Virus record (IMG/VR): IMGVR_UViG_3300042691_012004
Span: 1-20,111 of that record
Strand: one strand, 5' to 3'
DNA length: 20,111 nucleotides
From: a virus
Part shown: in pieces, positions 743 to 20,111 of the stretch
How positions within the stretch are numbered: position 1 is the first letter of the stretch
How the letters are laid out: every line of letters starts with the position of its first letter
Position numbers and translations under genes: made by a program
The notes under the pieces: generated by a model
The model's input: the letters and a program-made list of their open reading frames with translations, nothing else
Told to the model about the DNA's origin: nothing
Databases searched by the model: none

Positions 743-1129
743 ATGGCTGACGGAAAATACATCAATATAGCTTACCCCTTTATGGACAGCCCTAAGGGGT
801 TTTTCCTTGATTTAACATCAACGGATTCAAAAGCTATTAAATCTGATTTAATGCATTTAATATTAACCAGAAAAGGTGAAAGGTTATATAATCCAGAATT
901 TGGTAGTGATTTGATAAAATTCATATTTGAACCAAATGATGGTAGAACATTAAGTGAAATAAAATTAGATATTCAAAATACCGTAAAAAGATACATACCA
1001 AATTTAAATGTTGATGATGTATCTGTTGAACAAAGTGAAGAATCAGAATATTCAGTGTCCGTTAGAATAGATTACACAATAACTGATGATGTATTTAAAG
1101 AAGTTGATTTCGTTATTATAAATCTATAA
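743..1129 (+). CDS. Baseplate wedge subunit, T4 gp25-like (GPW/gp25 family)
   Basis: This 128-residue protein has the usual size of the gp25/gpW family, the small conserved wedge protein that links the wedge to the tail tube and sheath in contractile phages and related injection machines. Family features seen are an N-terminal YPF..SPKGFF segment (residues 11-21), a helix ending in [15 protein letters not shown] (41-55), FEPNDGRT (62-69), and an amphipathic helix leading into a beta segment. The conserved EPR tripeptide expected after that helix appears to be replaced by IPN (residues 85-87). There is no Shine-Dalgarno; the leader is A-rich (TATAAAAAAGAATAATG). Codons 11-20 form a G/C-rich hairpin described separately. 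The 3' end overlaps the convergent endonuclease gene by 14 bases. Function is assigned by family resemblance and by proximity to gp6. Confidence 0.92.
774..804 (+). promoter_or_regulatory. G/C-rich hairpin with T-run inside the 5' end of the gp25 gene
   Basis: ACCCCTT (774-780) and AAGGGGT (794-800) are a perfect 7-bp inverted repeat around a 13-base loop, followed by TTTT on the + strand. The hairpin starts about 30 bases inside the gp25 coding sequence. It uses codons such as CCC, CCT, AGC, AAG and GGG where the rest of the window prefers CCA, AGT, AAA and GGT. It resembles an attenuator or an RNA-processing or stability element. A function is inferred from shape and codon choice only. Confidence 0.45.
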
Positions 1130-2855: not shown

Positions 2856-4676
2856 ATGGCTAATCAAGGTATTTCATATAACGCTAGGAATTTCGTAGAC
2901 GTTAGAACTGAATTAATAAATTTTGTAAGACAATATTACCCAGACATCTTTAATGATTTTAATGATGCATCAGTGGGTATGATGTTATTGGAACTAAATG
3001 CTGCGGTAGGTGATATGTTATCATTTCACACTGATAGGATGTTTCAAGAAACGCAATTAGATTTCGCACAAGAGAGACAATCAGTTTTAGCTTTAGCAAG
3101 AACCTACGGATTAAAAGTACCAGGTAAAAGACCATCAGTATGTATTGTTGATTTTACATGTGTGGTACCAACACTTGGTTCATCTTTTGACCCAACATAT
3201 TTACCATTAATAAAAAGAGGTGCACAAGTAACTGGTGCTGGTAAAGTATTTGAAACTGCTGGAGATATTGATTTTGATTCACCATTCACAACTGGTGGGG
3301 TCCCAAATAGATTAATTGTACCAAATGTTGATGGTTCTGGTAACATCCTTAGTTATACAATAACAAAAAGAGAGATGGTTGTTAATGGTATAACTAGATA
3401 CTTCAAAAGAGTTACAACACCGAATGATGTAAGACCATTCTTTGAAATTATTTTACCAGAACAAGATGTTTTATCAATAACATCAATAATAACATTAGAT
3501 GGTACAAATTTTACAGCATTACCATCCTCAAATCAATTCTTTGATGAAGATTTAAGATGGTATGAAGTTGATGCGTTAGCTGATGATACTATATTCATAC
3601 CAGATAATGCTGCAATTAGTGATAATGCTGGAATTAAACCAGGAAAATATAAAAGGATAACTAAAAAGTTTATAACTGAATATACTGATAAAGGGTTTAT
3701 GAAAGTTATATTTGGTGGTGGTTCACAAGATATAAGTTCATTATCACAATTTGGTGTTGATTCAACATTAATTAATAAAATTGGTGATTTTATTAATAAT
3801 ACAGCACTAGGTGTTACACCGACAGCAAATCAAACAATGTATATAGAATATAGAACTGGTGGTGGTGCAGCGACCAATTTAGGTCCAAATATTTTAACAC
3901 AATTAGGTATTGCTGACATTATCGTTAGTGGACCAACAGCAAGTATGAATTTGAGTGTTAGAAACTCAATTAGGGTTAATAACCCAATACCAGCATTAGG
4001 TGGTAAAGATGAGCCATCCATTGATGAATTAAGATATTTAGTAAAATATAATTTCTCATCACAAAACAGAGCTGTTACAATACCAGATTACAAAGCTAGG
4101 ATTGCATTAATGCCAGGTGAATTTGGAACACCATTTAGATGTGGTGTATTTGAAGAACAAAATAAAATAAAAATATATACAGTTGGTTTAGATAGTAAAG
4201 GTAGGCTATCAAACCAATCAACAACAACATTACAAAACAATATCGCAACCTATTTATCAGACTATAGAATGATTAATGACTATATAGAAATTGGTAATGG
4301 TAAGATAATTAATTTAGGTTTTGAAATAGATTTGGCAATTGACAAACAATACCCACAAACACAAATAATAACACAAGCAATAACTGAAACCACGGATTAT
4401 TTTAGCATTAATAAGTGGCAAATGGGTGAGGATATATATTTGGGTCAGTTGGTTGAAAAAATAAACAATATCGCTGGTGTATTAAACGTAATTGATGTTA
4501 GAGCTTACAATAAAGTGGGTGGTTCATATTATTCAGCTAACGAAATATCACAACCATATATTGATGATGTTACTAGACAGATTGATTTATTAGGTGAATA
4601 TAAATTATATGGTGAACCTGGAGCTATGTTTGAAGTTAAAAGACCAGATTATGATATATTGATTAGGGTTAAGTAA
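2856..4676 (+). CDS. Baseplate wedge subunit, T4 gp6-like (gpJ family)
   Basis: At 606 residues the protein is close to T4 gp6 in length. In contractile tails gp6 forms the inner ring that joins the baseplate wedges, pairing with gp7 and gp25. The N-terminal part (residues 11-93) has the typical pattern: a VRTELINFVRQYYPD-like helix, then DFNDASVGMMLLELNAAVGDM, FHTDRMFQET, RQSVLALARTYGLKVPGKRPS. The C-terminal part (about 410-565) has the expected module with YKARIALMPGEFG, SDYRMINDYIEIGN, GEDIYLGQLVEKINNIAGVLNV. The middle is beta-rich with no further motif that I recognise. The ATG at 2856 is preceded by ATAAATAAAAAAT and no Shine-Dalgarno. gp25 and gp6 would probably be adjacent if the endonuclease were absent. 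The assignment is firm. Confidence 0.93.
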   Translation: MANQGISYNARNFVDVRTELINFVRQYYPDIFNDFNDASVGMMLLELNAAVGDMLSFHTDRMFQETQLDFAQERQSVLALARTYGLKVPGKRPSVCIVDFTCVVPTLGSSFDPTYLPLIKRGAQVTGAGKVFETAGDIDFDSPFTTGGVPNRLIVPNVDGSGNILSYTITKREMVVNGITRYFKRVTTPNDVRPFFEIILPEQDVLSITSIITLDGTNFTALPSSNQFFDEDLRWYEVDALADDTIFIPDNAAISDNAGIKPGKYKRITKKFITEYTDKGFMKVIFGGGSQDISSLSQFGVDSTLINKIGDFINNTALGVTPTANQTMYIEYRTGGGAATNLGPNILTQLGIADIIVSGPTASMNLSVRNSIRVNNPIPALGGKDEPSIDELRYLVKYNFSSQNRAVTIPDYKARIALMPGEFGTPFRCGVFEEQNKIKIYTVGLDSKGRLSNQSTTTLQNNIATYLSDYRMINDYIEIGNGKIINLGFEIDLAIDKQYPQTQIITQAITETTDYFSINKWQMGEDIYLGQLVEKINNIAGVLNVIDVRAYNKVGGSYYSANEISQPYIDDVTRQIDLLGEYKLYGEPGAMFEVKRPDYDILIRVK

Positions 4677-4722: not shown

Positions 4723-5058
4723 ATGAGTTGTAATAGTTGTAAAGACCCTAAAAAAAAATCAAACCAAAGTGAAGTTGTAAAAAAATCAGATAAAGTTGTA
4801 AATACTGTAATAAATTTAATACTTTATCTAATTGCGTTAAGTGTAACATCTATAGTTATTATACCGCTAATGGCTTTTGTATTATTTAGAGTCATTGTTT
4901 TAGGTAGACATGAGTATGATGTAGTCCCATTAGCATTAAAATTATTTAAATCTAAGAATAAGGGTGATGATAAGAACGATGATGATGATGAGGAAGACGA
5001 TATCGAAAATTTAGATGAAGAATATTTTAAAGAAGTTGAAGTATTAAATAATAAATAG
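4723..5058 (+). CDS. Small membrane protein of unknown function within the baseplate operon
   Basis: I do not recognise this 111-residue protein. Residues 1-24 are polar and basic with an N-terminal CNSC pair (C3, C6). Residues 25-60 are a long hydrophobic stretch containing only one charged residue (R56), long enough for one extended or two short transmembrane helices. Residues 61-80 are basic. Residues 81-105 are strongly acidic, with runs of D and E (DDDDEEDD near 87-93). There is no obvious signal-peptide cleavage site. It sits between gp6 and the 1442-residue protein, 46 bases after gp6 and 14 bases before the next ATG. The stop is TAG, the only one used in the window. A holin-like role, a membrane assembly site for the baseplate and an envelope-contact protein are all possible; the sequence does not decide. 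The operon position argues for a late morphogenesis or host-contact role. Confidence 0.75.
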   Translation: MSCNSCKDPKKKSNQSEVVKKSDKVVNTVINLILYLIALSVTSIVIIPLMAFVLFRVIVLGRHEYDVVPLALKLFKSKNKGDDKNDDDDEEDDIENLDEEYFKEVEVLNNK

Positions 5059-5072
5059 AATAATAATTATTA

Positions 5073-8000
5073 ATGTCAAGTATTAGAATAAATACAACAC
5101 CTGGAGGTAGTGATAACTATTTAAATGTTAAATTAGACCAAAAATTTGATTTTGTTGAAATACTATCACTTAAAATAACGCAAGAAGAAGTTTATAGAAA
5201 ATTTTGTTCTGACTACGGTGTTGTTGTTGGTAGAGTAACGGTTAATAATGGATTTGGTGTACCAAACGCTAAAGTATCAATATTTATACCAGTTGACGAT
5301 ATCGATAAAGAAAATTCTGAAATATTTGGGTTATATCCATATGAGCAAGTATTTGATAAAAATGAGGATGCATATAGATATAATTTATTACCAAAAAAGA
5401 ATGAAACAAACAATGATTGTTTTACACCAATAGGTTCATTTTTTAATAAAAGAGAAGTACAAGACAATGATGAAGCATTAGAAATTTATTGTAAATACTA
5501 TAAGTTTACAACCACAACAAACAATTCTGGTGACTTTATGATATTTGGTGTACCAACAGGTCCTCATCAGTTACATATAGATGCTGATTTATCAAATATT
5601 GGAATTATATCACAAGCACCTTATGATTTAATACGAGATGGTTCAAATGAAAAACTATTTCAAAGCGTATCCAAATTTAAGGAGAGTGAAAATCTAGATA
5701 CTTTAACACAGCTAAAAACAAAATCACCAATAAGTGTTAACGTTATACCATTTTGGGGTGATTTGGAACAATGTGAAATTGGTATAACTAGAACTGATGT
5801 TAATTTAGGGGTAAACATTGTACCAACTTCAATCTTTATTGGTAGTATATTTAGTGATAATGATAAAGGTGGTATAAATAAAAAATGTGTACCAAGGGGT
5901 AAAATGGGTGAAATGGATAAGTTAATTACTGGTCCAGGAACTATAGAAATGATTAGGAAACTACCAGATGGTAGTACAGAAAGATACGATGTTGAAGGTG
6001 GTCAAGTAATTGATGAAAATGGTGCTTGGGCATACCAAATACCTATGAACCTTGATTATATCACTACTGATGAATATGGTAATATTGTACCAACAGATGA
6101 CCCAAACAGAGGTATACCAACAAGAGCTAGAGTTAGATTTAGAATTGGTATGTTTGATAGTGGTGGTGAAGGTAGACTTAGAGCTAGAGCAAAATTTTTA
6201 GTACCACATAACCCAGCTAATCTTACCGAGGTTGATTGGAATTTTAGTGAAAAAACTGAAGATTTTAGTTTCGATGATATGTATTGGAACAAAATATATA
6301 CCGTAGCGAATCACATACCATCTTATTCAAGAACCTCATTTAACCCAAATTCGTATATTGCAATAAAAGATATTGAAAATGGTCAAAACACACCATTCCC
6401 ATTTAATAGAGTTGATTTAACTAATAATCCAGGTTTATTTTTATTTGCAATATTATGTCAGATATTTCAAATATTTATAGTAATTGTAATTTTTGTAAAT
6501 TTATTAGTTACATTTTTAAATGGTATTGTACAATTTTTAAATGCTATTGGTGAATTCTTTGGGGGTGATAACTTAATACCATATGTTAAATATATAACAT
6601 TAAACTGCAATGGTGATAAGTATTGTGTTGGTTGTTGTCAGTCATGCCCAGGTTTTAATGTTGGTGAACCAGAAAAAATACAAGATGCTACAGGTCAAAA
6701 ATGGTTAAATTGTGTAACAATTAATTTAGCGTTAGGTTTAAACTTAATAAAATTTAATTTCTTAAATGATTGGATTAATGGTACTTTATATGCCATGTTA
6801 TTTAAAATAAAGAGAAAGAAAAGGGGTAGTGGTAAAGAAAAATTCTGTGAATGGGGGTGTAGTTTAGATAATGATGGTGATGGTAATAATGATAACCCAT
6901 GTTGGAGTGCGTCATATTTTGACACATGCTCTAGTGCACCACCACAAAATCAAACAATATCTAGTAGTATAGGTAATAGTACAATTAGTGGTGGTATTAT
7001 CAAAAAAAATGAAGAAGAAGATGAATATTATTATGCACCAATAGAATCAAATGGTCAAGTAAAATTCTTAGCAACAAAAATAATTAATTTAGGTTCAGTA
7101 TTCGATTGCGACTGGCAAGGATTACCTAAATTCTATCCATATCTAATAGACACAACCTACAATCCACCTAATGAAACACCTATATATTACGATAGTACAG
7201 ACCCAGATTACCCAAGTCAATTAGAAGAAAGTGGTTATGATAATGTAAATGGTCCAGCCTTAATTGCAAAAGTAGCGTGTGGGGTTGGTGCAATAACTAG
7301 CTTTATTAACGTTGGTGATGACCAATGTAACAATATTAGGAGAATGTGTGAATTGGGCATGGGTATTGACGAAGACAGAAGAGATGTTGGTGGTGGTCAG
7401 GCACCAGATGCTAAAATATTAAATGATGATATTGAAAACCCATGGATTAGAGGTTTGTTCACATACTTGAACTACCCAACATCAATAAATACAATACCAT
7501 TAGTTTTCATAGACAATGGTTTAACACAATATACATATACAGCACCATATTATAAAGAATTTAGAGGTTATGACCATTTAATTGCGGACAACCCAACAAT
7601 TTGGCAATTTGATAACTCATATTATTTTTATTTTGGTTTAAAACCTGGTGCTAGTGCATTACAAAAACTATACACCAAGTACTTACCAAATTGTAAAAGA
7701 GTTGTTGAGAATGATTTAAAAATAATCATTGATGATGTTATAAATGATAATATTAGCGGTATAGGTACTGGTTCAATATCATTTCATATTGAGGGTGGTA
7801 TTGGACCATATACATATCAATGGCTCGGACCAACATATGGTGATTACCAATATAAATGTCCAGACCCAGATAATTATTTAGATTCTTCAGATTGTGGAAA
7901 CCCAGACGGTGGAACATCTGATAACCCATTCACAATAAGTGATTTATTAGGTGGTTCATATACATTAATTGTTACAGATTCAAATGGTAATCAAACAACA

Positions 8001-9401
8001 ACAACAGTTAATTTATCTGGGTTAAATTCAGTTCAATGTGAAGTACAACCAACACCAGTTGATGCTTCTGGTAATGGTAAGGTTAAAGTATCAATTAATG
8101 GTGGGGTATCCCCATATACAATAGAAATACAAGGTGTAACAAATACAGCATACAATATTGTTTTAAATACAGCACAACAAAACTATTGTTATGGTAATTG
8201 TACAGGACCAACAGACTTACCAAATGTTGTGAACCAATTACCAGCTGGACAATATGTAGTTACAGTTACTGATAGCGGTGTTCAAGCAATTATAAATGGT
8301 GAATCAACAACGATATATACTGAATGTGTAAAATCATTACTAATAAGTCAACCACAGAATATAACATTATCTGTTCAAACTGCTGATGCAAATTGTAATG
8401 GTAATTATGGTGAGGGATTAGTTAATATAATAGGTGGTGTTGCACCATATAATATAGAATGGTTATTGGTTAGTAGCAATAACCCAGATTACCAAAACTT
8501 GGTTAATACTGTTATATCGAATAGTATACAACCCGCTAATTTGGTTGCGGGTAACTATGCAATTACCATAACAGATTTAGCTGGTAATGTGCAAAGCACC
8601 ACAGCCGTTATATACGAACCACCACAAGTTACAGTATTGGTTAATAATATTAATGCACCTGGGTGTTATTTTAGTGAAACAGGTGGAGCGCAAGTAACGA
8701 TAAATGGTCAAAACCCACCATACAATATTGAAGTTATTGGTGACACATCATTAATCATAACCAATGCACCAAACGGTCTAACAAATATAAACACATTACT
8801 TGCCAGCCAAACACCATATGAAATGAAGGTAACTGATGCAAATGGTTGTGAAATAATAGAACAATTTACGGTACCGTATCCACAATATGGTGAATTATAT
8901 GTTACAGCATTTAGTAAATCATATTTTGATGGTGGTGTGGATAAAAGTAGAATCATAGTTAGGTTTAAAGGTGGTAATGGTGGTCCATATCATTTTAGAT
9001 TACCAAATGGTAACTGGATTAGTTTAGGGAACCCATACACAACAACATTACCAGTTATAGATTATAACGATACATTATCTACTGATTATCAATTATATCA
9101 ATCAACTACAAGTGTTGGTGGTGAAGACACATTTGAATTCCAATTCTGGGTTTCTGATACTGGTGTTGCTACATTCTATCCATTTAATTTCGAATATTAT
9201 TTAACTGAAAAGGGTCAACAAGATGTATACGCTATGTATAGGGGTAAATTACAATTACAATCAGATGGTACAATCGGTTTAGGGACATATGATTCACAAC
9301 AAGGTACTCAAGCACCTTATGGTTGTTATACATTTGACAATATTTCTAACACACCAGTATTGGGTCAAGCACCACAGGGTACACAAATAAGTCAACCGTA
9401 A
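5073..9401 (+). CDS. Giant baseplate/tail-tip protein with hydrophobic segment, cysteine clusters and SprB-like Ig repeats
   Basis: This 1442-residue protein is a likely peripheral baseplate component, judged by its position among wedge genes. Residues 50-72 and 145-172 resemble a split carboxypeptidase-regulatory-like Ig fold (GRVTVNNGFGVPNAKVSI, then SGDFMIFGVPTGPHQLHID). Residues 454-496 are a 40-residue, almost uncharged hydrophobic stretch, with another hydrophobic stretch near 548-576 ending in the basic KIKRKKRG. Cysteine clusters lie between and after them (C512, C518, C521, C522, C525, C547, C592, C596, C610, C619). Residues 843-873 contain NSYYFYFGLKPGASALQKL, just before the repeats. 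Residues 880-1268 hold four SprB/PKD-like Ig repeats. The C-terminal 170 residues are unassigned and beta-rich. The ATG overlaps a TAA (TAATG at 5071) just past the preceding gene's TAG. It is much larger than any T4 wedge protein. A receptor- or envelope-binding role is inferred. Confidence 0.7.
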   Translation: MSSIRINTTPGGSDNYLNVKLDQKFDFVEILSLKITQEEVYRKFCSDYGVVVGRVTVNNGFGVPNAKVSIFIPVDDIDKENSEIFGLYPYEQVFDKNEDAYRYNLLPKKNETNNDCFTPIGSFFNKREVQDNDEALEIYCKYYKFTTTTNNSGDFMIFGVPTGPHQLHIDADLSNIGIISQAPYDLIRDGSNEKLFQSVSKFKESENLDTLTQLKTKSPISVNVIPFWGDLEQCEIGITRTDVNLGVNIVPTSIFIGSIFSDNDKGGINKKCVPRGKMGEMDKLITGPGTIEMIRKLPDGSTERYDVEGGQVIDENGAWAYQIPMNLDYITTDEYGNIVPTDDPNRGIPTRARVRFRIGMFDSGGEGRLRARAKFLVPHNPANLTEVDWNFSEKTEDFSFDDMYWNKIYTVANHIPSYSRTSFNPNSYIAIKDIENGQNTPFPFNRVDLTNNPGLFLFAILCQIFQIFIVIVIFVNLLVTFLNGIVQFLNAIGEFFGGDNLIPYVKYITLNCNGDKYCVGCCQSCPGFNVGEPEKIQDATGQKWLNCVTINLALGLNLIKFNFLNDWINGTLYAMLFKIKRKKRGSGKEKFCEWGCSLDNDGDGNNDNPCWSASYFDTCSSAPPQNQTISSSIGNSTISGGIIKKNEEEDEYYYAPIESNGQVKFLATKIINLGSVFDCDWQGLPKFYPYLIDTTYNPPNETPIYYDSTDPDYPSQLEESGYDNVNGPALIAKVACGVGAITSFINVGDDQCNNIRRMCELGMGIDEDRRDVGGGQAPDAKILNDDIENPWIRGLFTYLNYPTSINTIPLVFIDNGLTQYTYTAPYYKEFRGYDHLIADNPTIWQFDNSYYFYFGLKPGASALQKLYTKYLPNCKRVVENDLKIIIDDVINDNISGIGTGSISFHIEGGIGPYTYQWLGPTYGDYQYKCPDPDNYLDSSDCGNPDGGTSDNPFTISDLLGGSYTLIVTDSNGNQTTTTVNLSGLNSVQCEVQPTPVDASGNGKVKVSINGGVSPYTIEIQGVTNTAYNIVLNTAQQNYCYGNCTGPTDLPNVVNQLPAGQYVVTVTDSGVQAIINGESTTIYTECVKSLLISQPQNITLSVQTADANCNGNYGEGLVNIIGGVAPYNIEWLLVSSNNPDYQNLVNTVISNSIQPANLVAGNYAITITDLAGNVQSTTAVIYEPPQVTVLVNNINAPGCYFSETGGAQVTINGQNPPYNIEVIGDTSLIITNAPNGLTNINTLLASQTPYEMKVTDANGCEIIEQFTVPYPQYGELYVTAFSKSYFDGGVDKSRIIVRFKGGNGGPYHFRLPNGNWISLGNPYTTTLPVIDYNDTLSTDYQLYQSTTSVGGEDTFEFQFWVSDTGVATFYPFNFEYYLTEKGQQDVYAMYRGKLQLQSDGTIGLGTYDSQQGTQAPYGCYTFDNISNTPVLGQAPQGTQISQP
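6432..6560 (+). other. Coding segment for a transmembrane-like hydrophobic stretch in the 1442-residue protein
   Basis: Codons for residues 454-496 encode an aliphatic and aromatic run (for example LFLFAILCQIFQIFIVIVIF) with almost no charge until its end. Such a run is unusual for a soluble baseplate subunit. It could be a buried core helix pair, or a segment that inserts into the host membrane. The cysteine-rich segment NCNGDKYC.GCCQSC follows within 20 residues. Confidence 0.7.
7710..8876 (+). repeat. Four SprB-like/PKD-like Ig repeats in the 1442-residue protein
   Basis: Four units of about 85-108 residues (about 880-985, 988-1095, 1096-1182, 1184-1268) share a GG-x-x-PY-x(I/Y)-E/Q strand: EGGIGPYTYQW, NGGVSPYTIEIQ, IGGVAPYNIEW, NGQNPPYNIEV. 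Each ends in an L..G.Y.(V/I)TVTD-like strand: LGGSYTLIVTDSNGN, LPAGQYVVTVTDSG, LVAGNYAITITDLAGN, TPYEMKVTDANGC. This is the signature of the SprB repeat, common in secreted adhesins of Bacteroidota such as gliding adhesins. Confidence 0.8.
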
Positions 9402-9414
9402 ATATTTATAGTAT

Positions 9415-11244
9415 ATGACCATAGGTAGAATAAAATATAAACAGCTCAAATCAGTTAAAAAAGGTGCATCAGATGTTGATAATTACGTAAACATTAACTT
9501 GGAATCTGAAAGTAAGTTATTACCTCCAGATAAAATAAATAAAATTGTAGATTTAGGTGATGTATTTAACAAGGAAAGGGAAGAATCTAAGAAATATAGA
9601 TTTGTTGGTACTATTTTACCAGTTTTTACAAATGTATTATTTAATATAAGTGGGGATAAAGGTCCAGATTCATTTAATATTTTCCAATTTAACAACTGGG
9701 TTGATACAGCAATATTACAACAACCATCAGAACCAGATGCTATAAGTAATGATAAATCATACGGCTGGGAAACCTTTGATGGTTATACATTTAAAACTGA
9801 CCCATTTGACAATAGTTATGTGGGACCAGCAGATTTTACATATAGTGAATCCATTAACAAAAACTTAAAGGAAATAAATGGTTGGTTTGGTTTTTATGAC
9901 CCAGACTTCAGAAAGGTTGGGTTTTGTGATTTTTATGATTTAGAACCTAGAAGGGATAGATTTGACCCATCAACATCATCATCAATTAGAAACTGGGAAT
10001 TCACAATAACATACCCATATGCAATTGATGACCAAAATCATTTAGTTAAAGGTGGTTTATTAATAACAAATGCTGAAACTAGAATTTTGGGTGGGGTACC
10101 AATGGTTGTTTTTGGAACAGCAGCACCACATAATTTACAAATTGGTGACACAGTTAGAATTTCAGACGTATCAAATTTGGTTATGAATGGTGATTTTACT
10201 GTTCAATCTGTTGGGTTAGAAAATGGTGATAGTAAAGATACGTTCTTTGTTGTTGACATAAACCCAACTACTGCAACTTTAGGACCAATATTTAGTGGTG
10301 GTAGAATGAAAAGATTATACTATGGTAATGAAGTTACTTATTATCTTAGAAAATTTAAAAAAATTAAAAAATTTGAAACACAAACACAATTAACACCTAA
10401 TGATTACGAAGTGTATCCATTAGCTTTTAGTTTGAACATTTACAATGATACAAATTATCAAATTGTGATAAAGGATGATATTGATATTTCAGATTTAAAG
10501 GATAATCTGGGTAGACCATTGAGTGAAATGTATTTAACGATGATTAAAACAAAATCTGATAATATGTTTACAAGAGTACAATCTGGTTTTGATTTTGAGA
10601 ATTACTATGGTAATACAATAACTAACACAACAGATGGTAGAGCTGTTTCAAATATTAGAAAGATACATACTTTATCGGCACCATTAGCACCATTTGATAG
10701 TCACACACCTATTGAGGATAATGTATTAATCACAAATAATGATTTTTATGGTGACATATGTGAATATAGTAAATATGAAGTTAAAGAAACTATATTACAA
10801 AAAATAATGCATAGATTTAATACTGTTGATAGGGAAACTACGGTAATAAAACAATTGACTGATGGGGCAATATATGGTCCTAGACCAGAAGGTTATATAT
10901 ATTACCCACATTACCAAGTTAATATTAGACAGTTCTCAAATTATGTGGAACAAGGTGATTCAACAACGGTAGATATACCAGAATACGCCGAGAGTTTAGG
11001 TGATGGTAGATATCTTTGGAGAGATTTATTAACACTTGGTTATAATGACGGACAAGATGAAACATTAGATTACCCATTTTTAAATGGTGCACATTATTTA
11101 TATGATAATTTTTGTGTGTTTAATAGAAGACAAGACCCATTTGGGGTTTTTGGTTTATATTATATTGATGAATATCATAGGGATATTTTCGGAGATGGAT
11201 TAACTGATAAATTTGAAGTAAAAAGAGCTAATGAGAGTTGCTGA
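9415..11244 (+). CDS. Probable baseplate wedge protein in the gp8 position
   Basis: This 609-residue protein has no motif that settles its family. It follows the 1442-residue protein by 13 bases (the leader contains TATTTATAGTATATG) and overlaps the next gene by one base (TGATG). Residues 1-62 are charged and polar. Residues 63-210 contain many aromatic residues (WFGFYDPDF, FCDFYDLEPRRDRF). Residues 211-300 look like a small beta-barrel insertion, with VFGTAAPHNLQIGDTVRIS and MNGDFTV. Residues 301-610 return to a Y/N/D-rich beta pattern, with EVYPLAFSLNIYNDTNYQIV and a C-terminal FGLYYIDEYHRDIFGDGLTDKFEV. The order gp25, gp6, large protein, this protein parallels T4 gp25, 6, 7, 8 only loosely, and it is longer than T4 gp8. 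A structural role is likely; the gp8 label is positional inference. Confidence 0.6.
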   Translation: MTIGRIKYKQLKSVKKGASDVDNYVNINLESESKLLPPDKINKIVDLGDVFNKEREESKKYRFVGTILPVFTNVLFNISGDKGPDSFNIFQFNNWVDTAILQQPSEPDAISNDKSYGWETFDGYTFKTDPFDNSYVGPADFTYSESINKNLKEINGWFGFYDPDFRKVGFCDFYDLEPRRDRFDPSTSSSIRNWEFTITYPYAIDDQNHLVKGGLLITNAETRILGGVPMVVFGTAAPHNLQIGDTVRISDVSNLVMNGDFTVQSVGLENGDSKDTFFVVDINPTTATLGPIFSGGRMKRLYYGNEVTYYLRKFKKIKKFETQTQLTPNDYEVYPLAFSLNIYNDTNYQIVIKDDIDISDLKDNLGRPLSEMYLTMIKTKSDNMFTRVQSGFDFENYYGNTITNTTDGRAVSNIRKIHTLSAPLAPFDSHTPIEDNVLITNNDFYGDICEYSKYEVKETILQKIMHRFNTVDRETTVIKQLTDGAIYGPRPEGYIYYPHYQVNIRQFSNYVEQGDSTTVDIPEYAESLGDGRYLWRDLLTLGYNDGQDETLDYPFLNGAHYLYDNFCVFNRRQDPFGVFGLYYIDEYHRDIFGDGLTDKFEVKRANESC

Positions 11245-13904: not shown

Positions 13905-16900
13905 ATGGCTGAAAGCAACAATATAATTGTACCTGGGTATGTTCAAAAGGTAGTATATAGTGATGGTATAGAATATAGAAATTTTAGTCCAGACTTAGTT
14001 GGTAATTTACCATTTAATGGTGATAATAGTAATACATCCTTATTCACAAATGGTAATTTTGCTTTAACGGTAAACACCACTGGTAAAAGGGATATTATTT
14101 ATCCATCAAAAGCATTTAGTAAATTCTATACTTTAAATGAATTAACCCCATCAGCCCAAAATACACAACAGCAAGTTAGTTTAGCTCAACTACCATTAGC
14201 TAATTCAAAAATTGTATTAAATTTAGATAATACAATATTAGGTAATTTTGCTTATTTTGGTTCAGCTACTGAATTTGTTAGGGTTACATTGGAAAACATA
14301 ATTTCAAAATGGCCAGCATCACTATATTTTAATTTTTATGATTATCAAACATCAGCACCAACACCAACCATATTAGATTATACATATAGTAGTTATTTAA
14401 ATACAACTACAATAAAATTAAACACGAATACACTATATAATCAATTTGATATTATATACCAACAAACTGGAGAATTATTAACTAATATTGATAATCCATT
14501 AAAAAACTTCACAGTAAATTATAATAAATTCAATTTATTATATGAAGGTAATGAATATGCTTTAATAAATAATATAGCACCAGTAGATGCTAGGAATAGT
14601 TATTTAACCATAACTGTTGTTGGTAATCCATTTAATGGTATGGATATAAGTATTAATAATAATGCATACAAAGTATTACATATTAAACCGAACAATACTG
14701 AGTTTGAAACCTTCTTCCAAAAGTTGGACCCATTTGAAAATAATTTGTTAAATAGATTAACAACACCACAATATACATCAGTTTTTGATTATACTATAAC
14801 AACAGACAATGGTTTAATATTTGAAAGTAGTAAGTCATTAACATGGCCAACTACTGATGGTTATAATATTGATTTTGATACTAATGAATATGTTACATAT
14901 GTTACACAGTTGATTGATATATGTAATGCGAGTGATAGTATAAAATCTGATTTAGTTTTTAGGTTTTTAACTAGTGAATCAATATCTAATTTCGATACGA
15001 TACCTAGATGTGATGGTAGTGAGGAAGAAACTGCTGGTCAAAAAATGACCAAAACTCTTAGGGTATATGGTAGGGAGTTTGATGAGGTTAAGAAATTTAT
15101 CGATGGTATATCACATTCTAACATTGTATCTTACGATAAAAAAAATAACACACCAGACCAAGTGGTTAAATATTTAGCTATGACTCTAGGGTGGCAATTA
15201 ACTAATTCAATTGTTGAAAATGATATATTGGCTGGTTATTTAGATACAGCACAACCATCGTATTCTGGACAAAGTAGAGGGTTAACACCAGTTGAAGCTG
15301 AAATAGAATTATGGAGAAGATTAGTATTAAATTCAGCTTGGTTATTTAAATCAAAAGGTACTAGAAAAGCTGTTGAATTTTTATTTAAATTTATTGGAGC
15401 CCCAGAAGGATTAATAAGTTTAAATGAATACGTATATGTTGCAAAAGAAAAATTAGATATTGATTTCCTTATAGATACATTGATATCATATGATTTAGCA
15501 ACAGATTTGAGTTTTTATCCAGTTGATGAAGACGGATACCCAAAATTCTTTCCAGATACACCATTAATGTATTTCCAAAAAGCTGGTTTATGGTATAAAG
15601 AAACTGGTGGTTTAGATGCTACAGATTTTAACCTTATTGGTAATAACCCACATATTGGACCATATGACGGTGGTACAGCTTATATTAATCAATTAAGGAA
15701 TATCATACCTGACTTTGAACCTAAAAGTGTAACATCAACAACATATAGTTATGTAACTACCGAATTATTTACAAATTATAATAATGGTATAGTAAATAAT
15801 TACACTGGTGATACATATGTTGATATTGAAACTTGGTCTGGTGTATCATTATATGAATGTTTTACATATGATGCGCAAATTATAAATGACCCAAAACCTT
15901 CAGCTGAAAAAACACAATGTGGTTGCGATATACCAGCTGATGATTTATCATTATATATTAATGTTGTTAGGGATGAATATACTTTTAATGAGCAATTGCA
16001 AGATTGTAGTAGTAGGATAAGTGGATATACGTTGGTAGATATAACCAATGATGAATTTACTATCAAACCAGAAGTGTATTTATGGGATTATTTCACATAC
16101 AATCCAGATGGTACAACAAGTAGTATAGTATATACAACACCATTTGTATCTAAAACATGTTGCACAGCATTAGTTAATGGTCAATCATATCTTCATGATG
16201 AATATAGTGTTAATGAAGTAACTGGACAACCAATACTAGTTAATAGTGGTTATATTTGTTGTAACTTAGTAGCAACTGATTCTGGTAAAATTCATGGGAA
16301 TATATTTAAAAATTTTGGATTTAACTCACCACAACCTAGAAATAGAACACCATTTGGTCTTATGGGTGGTAAGCCTCAAAATGAATTACCTGGTGGTAAA
16401 ACAGAATTTATAGAACCAATACCATTTGTAAATTTAAAAAATAAAGGTTGTGGTTGTTATTTAGCGTGTCAATGGAGACTAGCTGGTCCATTACTTGGGC
16501 AAATGTATACATTAGATTCAAATAAATATTTAAAATTTGTAACACCTAAAAATAATTGGGGACAAAATGGTACACCAGAATATAGATTAGTTACTGAAGC
16601 TGATGGTTGCATGTGTCCACCTCAATACACAACACCAACATTAATAACTGACCCATACACTAATAAACAAGGTTTTGGGTGCAAGATAAATAATTCTGGA
16701 TATGAGGTGTTAAATTTAAATCAATCAAACCCATCATATGGTACAACTAATGGACCATTATATCAGTTATTTTATCAAAAATCAATTGGTGAAATAGCTT
16801 GTACTAAAATGGTTGCAGAAACAAATTGCAATATACTATTGGGTAATGCAACACTTAATTTAAGTGGTGATGGTGTTATTACTAATAGTGGACCACTTGT

Positions 16901-17129
16901 ATCAAATGCTACTGAACCATATGTATATAGTTGGGAAATAACACAACAGAGTGGATATTTCTCTGGATACGGTTTTGATGGTGGTATTAATGACACTAGT
17001 TCAATACAAGTTATAAAACTAACTGATAATACTGAAATAAGAGGAAAAATAACAATTAAAGTTACTATTACTGATGCTAAGGGTTGTAAGGCTTATAAAA
17101 CATTAACATATGAGAAATCTAATGTTTGA
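13905..17129 (+). CDS. Baseplate wedge protein with tail-protein-I/gp7-like core and cysteine-rich C-terminal extension
   Basis: This is a 1074-residue protein. Residues 381-610 resemble the P2 tail protein I / T4 gp7 core. They comprise a helical stretch (REFDEVKKFIDGI), TPDQVVKYLAMTLGW, the hallmark LWRRLVLNSAWLFKSKGTR (469-487), KAVEFLFKFIGAPEGLI, and an exit with FQKAGLWYKE and IPDFEPK. In contractile tails this core joins gp6 to form the wedge. The N-terminal 380 residues are beta-rich and unassigned. Residues 650-970 are cysteine-rich (C652, CGC at 672-674, CC at 752-753 and 785-786, CGCYLAC at 849-855, CMC at 902-904, C926). The last 100 residues form a PKD/SprB-like Ig domain (VYSWEITQQSGYFSG, IKVTITDAKGC). 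Its length is close to T4 gp7, but the extension is unlike it. The start ATG follows TTAATTAAAA. Confidence 0.75.
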   Translation: MAESNNIIVPGYVQKVVYSDGIEYRNFSPDLVGNLPFNGDNSNTSLFTNGNFALTVNTTGKRDIIYPSKAFSKFYTLNELTPSAQNTQQQVSLAQLPLANSKIVLNLDNTILGNFAYFGSATEFVRVTLENIISKWPASLYFNFYDYQTSAPTPTILDYTYSSYLNTTTIKLNTNTLYNQFDIIYQQTGELLTNIDNPLKNFTVNYNKFNLLYEGNEYALINNIAPVDARNSYLTITVVGNPFNGMDISINNNAYKVLHIKPNNTEFETFFQKLDPFENNLLNRLTTPQYTSVFDYTITTDNGLIFESSKSLTWPTTDGYNIDFDTNEYVTYVTQLIDICNASDSIKSDLVFRFLTSESISNFDTIPRCDGSEEETAGQKMTKTLRVYGREFDEVKKFIDGISHSNIVSYDKKNNTPDQVVKYLAMTLGWQLTNSIVENDILAGYLDTAQPSYSGQSRGLTPVEAEIELWRRLVLNSAWLFKSKGTRKAVEFLFKFIGAPEGLISLNEYVYVAKEKLDIDFLIDTLISYDLATDLSFYPVDEDGYPKFFPDTPLMYFQKAGLWYKETGGLDATDFNLIGNNPHIGPYDGGTAYINQLRNIIPDFEPKSVTSTTYSYVTTELFTNYNNGIVNNYTGDTYVDIETWSGVSLYECFTYDAQIINDPKPSAEKTQCGCDIPADDLSLYINVVRDEYTFNEQLQDCSSRISGYTLVDITNDEFTIKPEVYLWDYFTYNPDGTTSSIVYTTPFVSKTCCTALVNGQSYLHDEYSVNEVTGQPILVNSGYICCNLVATDSGKIHGNIFKNFGFNSPQPRNRTPFGLMGGKPQNELPGGKTEFIEPIPFVNLKNKGCGCYLACQWRLAGPLLGQMYTLDSNKYLKFVTPKNNWGQNGTPEYRLVTEADGCMCPPQYTTPTLITDPYTNKQGFGCKINNSGYEVLNLNQSNPSYGTTNGPLYQLFYQKSIGEIACTKMVAETNCNILLGNATLNLSGDGVITNSGPLVSNATEPYVYSWEITQQSGYFSGYGFDGGINDTSSIQVIKLTDNTEIRGKITIKVTITDAKGCKAYKTLTYEKSNV

Positions 17130-19416: not shown

Positions 19417-20111
19417 ATGGCAAAGTTAACAGACATAAGTTTAGCACCAAGTGTGACATTAAATACTTTAATACACGTTGTTAATACTAGTGACACATCA
19501 CAAGACCCAGCTGGTTCTTCGTATAAAACACCACTATCAACGCTATCACCATTATTTGGTGGTACTGTAACAACATATTGGTCAGCATCAACTGGAACAA
19601 ACGCTATTGTTGTTAAATATAGTAATTCAGTTGCTAATGGTACACTAGCTATTGGTGAAGGTTATCAAACAACAGCTAATGGTAATTATTCACATTCAGA
19701 GGGTAATACCACTAAAGCAATTGGTACTTCATCACACTCAGAAGGTTACCAAACAAGTGCTTTAGGTAACTTAGGTTCACATTCAGAAGGTGCTAATACA
19801 ACGGCTAATGGTGAATCTTCACATGCTGAGGGTTTAAGTACAACAGCTAGTGGTGATTATGGTTCACACACTGAAGGGTGGTCAACAATAGCTAGCGATG
19901 ATGCGGCACACGCTGAAGGAAATAACACATTAGCATCTGGACCAGCTTCACATGCTGAAGGTAATAATACAACAGCTAGTGGTGTAGCATCACATACTGA
20001 GGGATATCAAACAACAAGTATTAGTGATTACTCACACGCTGAAGGTTATGGGTCAGTGGCTTCTGGTGGCACCGCATACGGGGCACATGCTGAAGGTTAC
20101 GAAACAACAGC
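19417..20111 (+). CDS. Tail fibre with YadA-head-like SHAEG repeats, 5' part
   Basis: The ATG at 19417 follows ATATATAAAAA, and the frame stays open to the right edge (231 complete codons), so the gene continues outside. Residues 1-60 form a short N-terminal domain starting MAKLTDISLAPSVTLNTLI and containing SDTSQDPAGSSYKTPLSTL, probably the attachment to the tail. A linker with TYWSASTGTNAIVV follows. From about residue 73 the protein is a continuous series of 14-15-residue repeats of the form A.G..SH(A/S/T)EG..T, for example TASGVASHTEGYQT. These resemble the YadA/Hep_Hag head repeats, which fold as a trimeric left-handed beta-roll. A receptor-binding fibre at the distal end of the late operon is the natural reading. 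The tip and any chaperone domain lie beyond the window. Confidence 0.85.
   Translation, partial: MAKLTDISLAPSVTLNTLIHVVNTSDTSQDPAGSSYKTPLSTLSPLFGGTVTTYWSASTGTNAIVVKYSNSVANGTLAIGEGYQTTANGNYSHSEGNTTKAIGTSSHSEGYQTSALGNLGSHSEGANTTANGESSHAEGLSTTASGDYGSHTEGWSTIASDDAAHAEGNNTLASGPASHAEGNNTTASGVASHTEGYQTTSISDYSHAEGYGSVASGGTAYGAHAEGYETT
19633..20111 (+). repeat. Tandem 14-15-codon SHAEG repeats in the fibre gene
   Basis: About ten consecutive units are seen, with a period of 42-45 bases; one late unit is longer, with an inserted GTAYGA. Each carries S/A-H-A/S/T-E-G then x-x-T/S-x-A-x-G. The DNA copies have diverged at wobble positions, so the repeat is maintained at protein level. It runs off the window. 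Confidence 0.9.

Follow-up and report, generated by a model that had tools for sequence, protein, structure and literature searches.

What is a membrane-type helix doing in the middle of a protein encoded among the baseplate genes of a contractile phage tail? The question is raised by a viral DNA stretch of 20,111 nucleotides (positions 1 to 20,111 of IMG/VR record IMGVR_UViG_3300042691_012004), called the window throughout. The helix belongs to a 1442-amino-acid (aa) protein, here termed BIG, that is encoded by the open reading frame (ORF) at 5073–9401. The ORF before it, at 4723–5058, encodes a small membrane protein of 111 aa; both lie on the plus strand, as do all segments of BIG located below. 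An earlier note on this DNA had proposed a conditional membrane-inserting element, held by disulfides or a metal and released on host contact. On the best-supported reading, BIG is a fibre-like protein of the baseplate and its helix serves in membrane docking. The passage of contractile-phage DNA across the inner membrane is poorly understood. A conserved membrane element, a paired small gene and natural helix-less relatives would make that question testable in a lineage of uncultivated, very large phages, several of which have contigs of more than 200 kb.

The hydrophobic run that the earlier note put at 40 residues spans residues 452–492 of BIG. Its 19-residue Kyte–Doolittle maximum of 2.93 was reached in 17 of 20,000 whole-protein shuffles, and it is the only strong run in the protein (the runner-up, at 729–748, peaks at 1.72). 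An AlphaFold2 model of residues 1–790, built from an alignment of 79 sequences, has a predicted local distance difference test score (pLDDT) of 86.7 and a predicted template modelling score of 0.83. It contains one helix, confidently modelled as continuous over 43 residues (453–495; window 6429–6557; block pLDDT ∼83–93), and is otherwise beta-rich, which bears out the description of the remainder as beta-rich and soluble in type. Insertion costs were computed on a simple biological hydrophobicity scale, with values below 0 taken as insertion-competent. BIG scored −3.1, the lowest of the window proteins, and the small protein −2.3; no other window protein fell below 0 (NrdA +1.7, the remainder +6 to +15). 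By hydrophobicity and prediction, a baseplate or fibre component here carries a membrane-type helix.

This helix is shared. A hydrophobic run was present at the same site in all 83 distinct BIG sequences of a near-relative set, usually as the sole strong one. Its length varies widely, and single residues within it are nearly invariant (C462 in 80/83, N476 in 82/83). The small gene lies directly 5′ of BIG in 82 of the 83, and inspection of the last (L089) revealed an overlapping copy. Its product opens with a CxxC/CxC-K motif of the MGCNCK type (consensus M-(G/S/A)-C-x-(x)-C-K, with C3 in 81, C6 in 82 and K7 in 76 of 82 sequences), followed by one long hydrophobic helix (a single helix at 17–60 in the AlphaFold2 model) and usually an acidic tail. 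The small protein matched no Pfam, PHROG or NCBIfam family above cut-off.

The link between the two genes runs one way. Among 129 relatives in a wider set, 90 have a strong helix and the small gene (group I), 30 have the helix only (group II; 27 strong, three weak) and nine have neither (group III). No relative has the small gene without the helix: the small gene is found only alongside the helix, and the helix does not require the small gene. The idea of the two as obligate partners was wrong in that one direction. An apparent small gene without a helix in L126 was rejected as an unrelated hydrophobic ORF, and no credible small-gene homologue was found elsewhere in eight genomes or records of the wider set. 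Scores below 0 were obtained for 79/90 members of group I, 20/30 of group II, 0/9 of group III and 76/82 small proteins. The group II site holds 21–104 hydrophobic residues, with up to two insertion-competent segments in several members, and these blocks look like membrane domains. On a tree of the N-terminal region, helix presence requires one change and small-gene presence two, the second owed to a long-branch row (L119); the helix-less group itself includes long branches, the joining of which is unsure. The 380-kb genome behind L001 also holds a second BIG copy (L108:4813–6915, 700 aa) without the helix, where there is no room for the small gene because the preceding gene overlaps the BIG start. 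That helix-less copy lies in a second cassette (L108 1–10001) duplicating 1074-, 733-, BIG- and 609-like genes.

The genes nearest BIG make up a baseplate operon. The window runs from the end of an NrdA gene through gp25, a gp6-like wedge gene, the 111-aa ORF and BIG to more tail genes. The gp25-like wedge gene (743–1129, plus strand; Pfam GPW_gp25, 1.4e-16) and the gp6-like one (2856–4676, plus strand; PHROG 219, 10646 and 6, ‘baseplate wedge subunit’, and tblastn matches to annotated baseplate wedge proteins) adjoin as in a T4-type baseplate wedge operon. The order gp25-gp6-small-BIG-609-285-292-303-1074 is kept throughout the relatives, some of them on contigs of 270–380 kb. Three phage records sharing gp25 and gp6 (Flavobacterium phage immuto, Microcystis phage Mel-JY01 and LR756508) had no membrane-type segment in any protein after gp6, which fits the earlier view that such a feature is uncommon for a contractile-tail baseplate.

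BIG itself comprises a beta-rich N-terminal region, the hydrophobic helix and a Cys-bearing linker, is conserved to about residue 880, and ends in a variable Ig/SprB-like C-terminus; total length ranges from 605 to 2615 aa across relatives. Being variable and Ig/SprB-like, the C-terminus suggests an exposed, host-facing part. Bacteroidota hosts are suggested only by the SprB-like repeats and by metagenome-assembled genome contigs, whose labels include Bacteroidales and Paludibacteraceae. As a whole, BIG matched no Pfam or NCBIfam family above cut-off and joined no known baseplate family. Its PHROG matches are confined to Hoc-like C-terminal repeats; residues 1–876 have none and match nothing in phage records, even at E 1. 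A profile search of solved-structure sequences gave no match either. Foldseek against the PDB and VIA-align returned only middling-score beta-sandwich matches, and the lack of better ones proves nothing. Residues 28–249 and, less surely, 250–690 matched domains of the CnaB/transthyretin/carboxypeptidase-regulatory kind (best Z 6.7 for 28–248 and ∼5–6 for 250–690; CarboxypepD_reg at E 2.6e-5, below its curated cut-off). If this less certain second match holds, the hydrophobic helix would be an insert in the second domain. The sole whole-length structural match was A0A8S5LA66 of Myoviridae sp. ctPuP5 (TMq 0.84, 36% identity), an uncharacterised family member that carries no assigned function. 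No known family or solved structure covers the membrane-type element, and no description of such an element was found in literature searches that reached few subscription papers.

How might these parts work together? BIG would be attached to the baseplate as a component resembling a fibre or adhesin, and its second beta-sandwich-like domain would carry a long, nearly all-hydrophobic helix insert that acts in membrane docking. Sister phages would present several hydrophobic segments at this site. In the window clade, the small bitopic membrane protein encoded just upstream would contribute another long helix, paired with the first. The helices would be shielded in the tail-tip assembly and then enter a host membrane upon tail docking or contraction. 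Such use at infection is favoured by the C-terminus of BIG, which looks like a variable, host-facing adhesin. Presence in the virion, pairing of the helices, actual membrane insertion and its timing are what we infer; the whole proposal, from adhesin-like baseplate protein through docking helix and helix pairing to use at infection, is tentative, at somewhat less than an even chance. The membrane-inserting element of the earlier note stands in part: its membrane type is supported by family conservation, by the adjacent small membrane gene and by up to ∼100 hydrophobic residues in the sister clade. Together, the BIG helix and the small membrane gene suggest that membrane docking or opening in these phages falls to a tail part that has no such known role in the usually studied phages.

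Tail proteins can bear such segments. The tape-measure protein of phage TP901-1 has membrane-type segments thought to serve infection or chaperone recruitment (PMC5099701); the part of tape-measure hydrophobic regions in insertion is disputed. BIG, in contrast, is beta-rich, lies in the wedge operon and has a single-helix insert and an adhesin-like C-terminus. In type VI secretion system prePAAR effectors, a transmembrane segment on a contractile tip protein is shielded by a dedicated Eag chaperone (PMC7773334), whereas the partner of BIG is itself a membrane protein. Pfam and NCBIfam searches found no PAAR or prePAAR domain, Eag-type chaperone or toxin domain.

Several observations weigh against membrane docking. 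Eleven members of group I and ten of group II are not insertion-competent, three group II members (L147, L183 and L128) have amphipathic helices only, and some BIG relatives carry Lys or Arg in mid-helix. Covariation in length between the helices of the small protein and BIG was sought, and no signal remained once phylogeny was accounted for (partial Mantel r 0.06, p 0.12). Finally, variation is greatest along the narrow polar stripe of the helix, and the conserved face lies only 50–70 degrees off the hydrophobic one. This is expected of a protein-buried helix with a water-exposed stripe rather than a lipid-facing one; such a stripe would also be expected of a water-lined membrane bundle.

The main rival, unlikely in our estimation, is that both helices serve assembly: they would sit in the inner membrane of the producing cell, where baseplates would assemble before being freed at lysis. 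The small protein lacks a signal peptide and resembles an ordinary bitopic inner-membrane protein, and there are precedents. In T4, gp20 and gp40 act at the inner membrane as a membrane-bound portal initiator (PMC9958956). Cis13, of the thylakoid-anchored contractile injection system of Anabaena, is a fibre-like baseplate protein whose transmembrane helix places a contractile machine at a membrane, somewhat as proposed for BIG (PMC8894136). The comparison is by description: the helix of Cis13 is C-terminal and its injection system cellular, whereas that of BIG is internal, encoded in a phage operon and accompanied by a small membrane partner. CisA of Streptomyces contractile injection systems, a bitopic membrane protein required for firing, may likewise be set beside this locus as a membrane protein whose gene accompanies a contractile tail cluster (PMC12237407); again by description, the structural-operon protein here bears a helix itself and has a small CxC-K partner in addition. 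Were the assembly role true, phages would join the systems with membrane-anchored contractile machines. However, if the helix spanned the membrane, the adhesin-like C-terminus and the baseplate-side domain of BIG would lie on opposite sides of it, which is hard to square with incorporation into virions, and 30 relatives have the helix without the small gene.

Next in probability, and likewise unlikely, the helix could have nothing to do with membranes and form the core of a trimeric or hexameric baseplate oligomer, to which the small protein adds a helix; its hydrophobicity would then reflect burial only. The conserved hydrophobic positions and variable polar stripe fit such a bundle, as do the heptad-like spacing of Asn in the window protein (476, 483 and 490) and the merely amphipathic helices of L147, L183 and L128. 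Less easily accommodated are the breadth of the hydrophobic surface (about 5/7 helix faces across 40 residues), the relatives with ∼100 hydrophobic residues at the site, and a partner gene whose product is itself a membrane protein.

Docking in the host membrane also has a bolder form, which we regard as doubtful and place below both of these alternatives. BIG and the small protein might constitute a virion-borne two-gene membrane-insertion device, their helices forming a bundle or pore through which a host membrane is opened or bridged at tail docking, perhaps with a metal site shared between conserved Cys. Such a baseplate function is not described for phages.

That the Cys at 512–525 form a redox or metal lock, holding an insertion helix until host contact, is very improbable: five Cys do fall within 14 residues just after the helix, with conserved Cys in and near the cluster (C512 71/81, C521 69/81, C547 71/83, C592 81/81, C596 75/77, C610 62/63), but C518 and C522 recur in 1/83 each and C525 in 5/49, and only 6/83 relatives have at least four Cys in 14 residues at the site. 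The cluster itself (C512, 518, 521, 522 and 525; window 6606–6647) is present as first described and uncommon by chance, being matched by 59 of 20,000 whole-protein shuffles. Wide conservation is limited to C512 and C521; the rest is mostly private to the window sequence, and a disulfide or metal lock was rejected as a family feature.

A second hydrophobic stretch had also been claimed. There is a weak one at 542–577 (window 6696–6803), but from ∼548 to 577 it stays below 1.6 on the 19-residue scale, it is modelled as a short helix (542–555) and strands, and its conserved FDFYNDWxNGxLY motif is of soluble type; a membrane role was rejected. The basic KIKRKKRG loop is present at 578–585 (6804–6827), just beyond the end of the segment singled out earlier, and its counterparts in relatives are usually basic (KYKKKRK) and not invariant. 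Conserved C592, C596 and C610 flank a DxDxDGxxD-like loop (NDGDGNND; 6846–6902), possibly a Ca-binding, thrombospondin-3-like module to judge from the motif.

Downstream of BIG, the 609-aa protein (9415–11244, plus strand) has homologues in 73 loci with order kept. The syntenic 1074-aa protein (13905–17129, plus strand), homologues of which occur in 50 loci, is weakly similar to a 1336-aa protein of Mel-JY01 (L106) and is possibly gp7/gpI-like. The NrdA gene (ribonucleotide reductase large subunit; 3–656) lies directly upstream of the baseplate operon and was found in 51 loci. Between gp25 and gp6, a 547-aa ORF on the minus strand (1116–2759) combines DUF723/treble-clef repeats with a REase_MTES_1575-like region. 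A mobile homing-type endonuclease is suggested, because the gp25-gp6 gap is under 60 nt in 77/93 loci and 1.7–2.2 kb in L005, L050 (on one contig with L005), L011, L056 and L077. In L022, L024, L005, L056, L077 and L085, the interval from gp6 to the small gene contains additional ORFs of ∼195–377 aa, possibly mobile inserts. At the other end of the window, 19417–20109 encodes a fibre with YadA-head repeats (SHSEG/SHAEG), incomplete at the window end. In L110 (G001:C1:244000-252000), a Phage_lysozyme2 domain lies inside a 4104-aa open frame.
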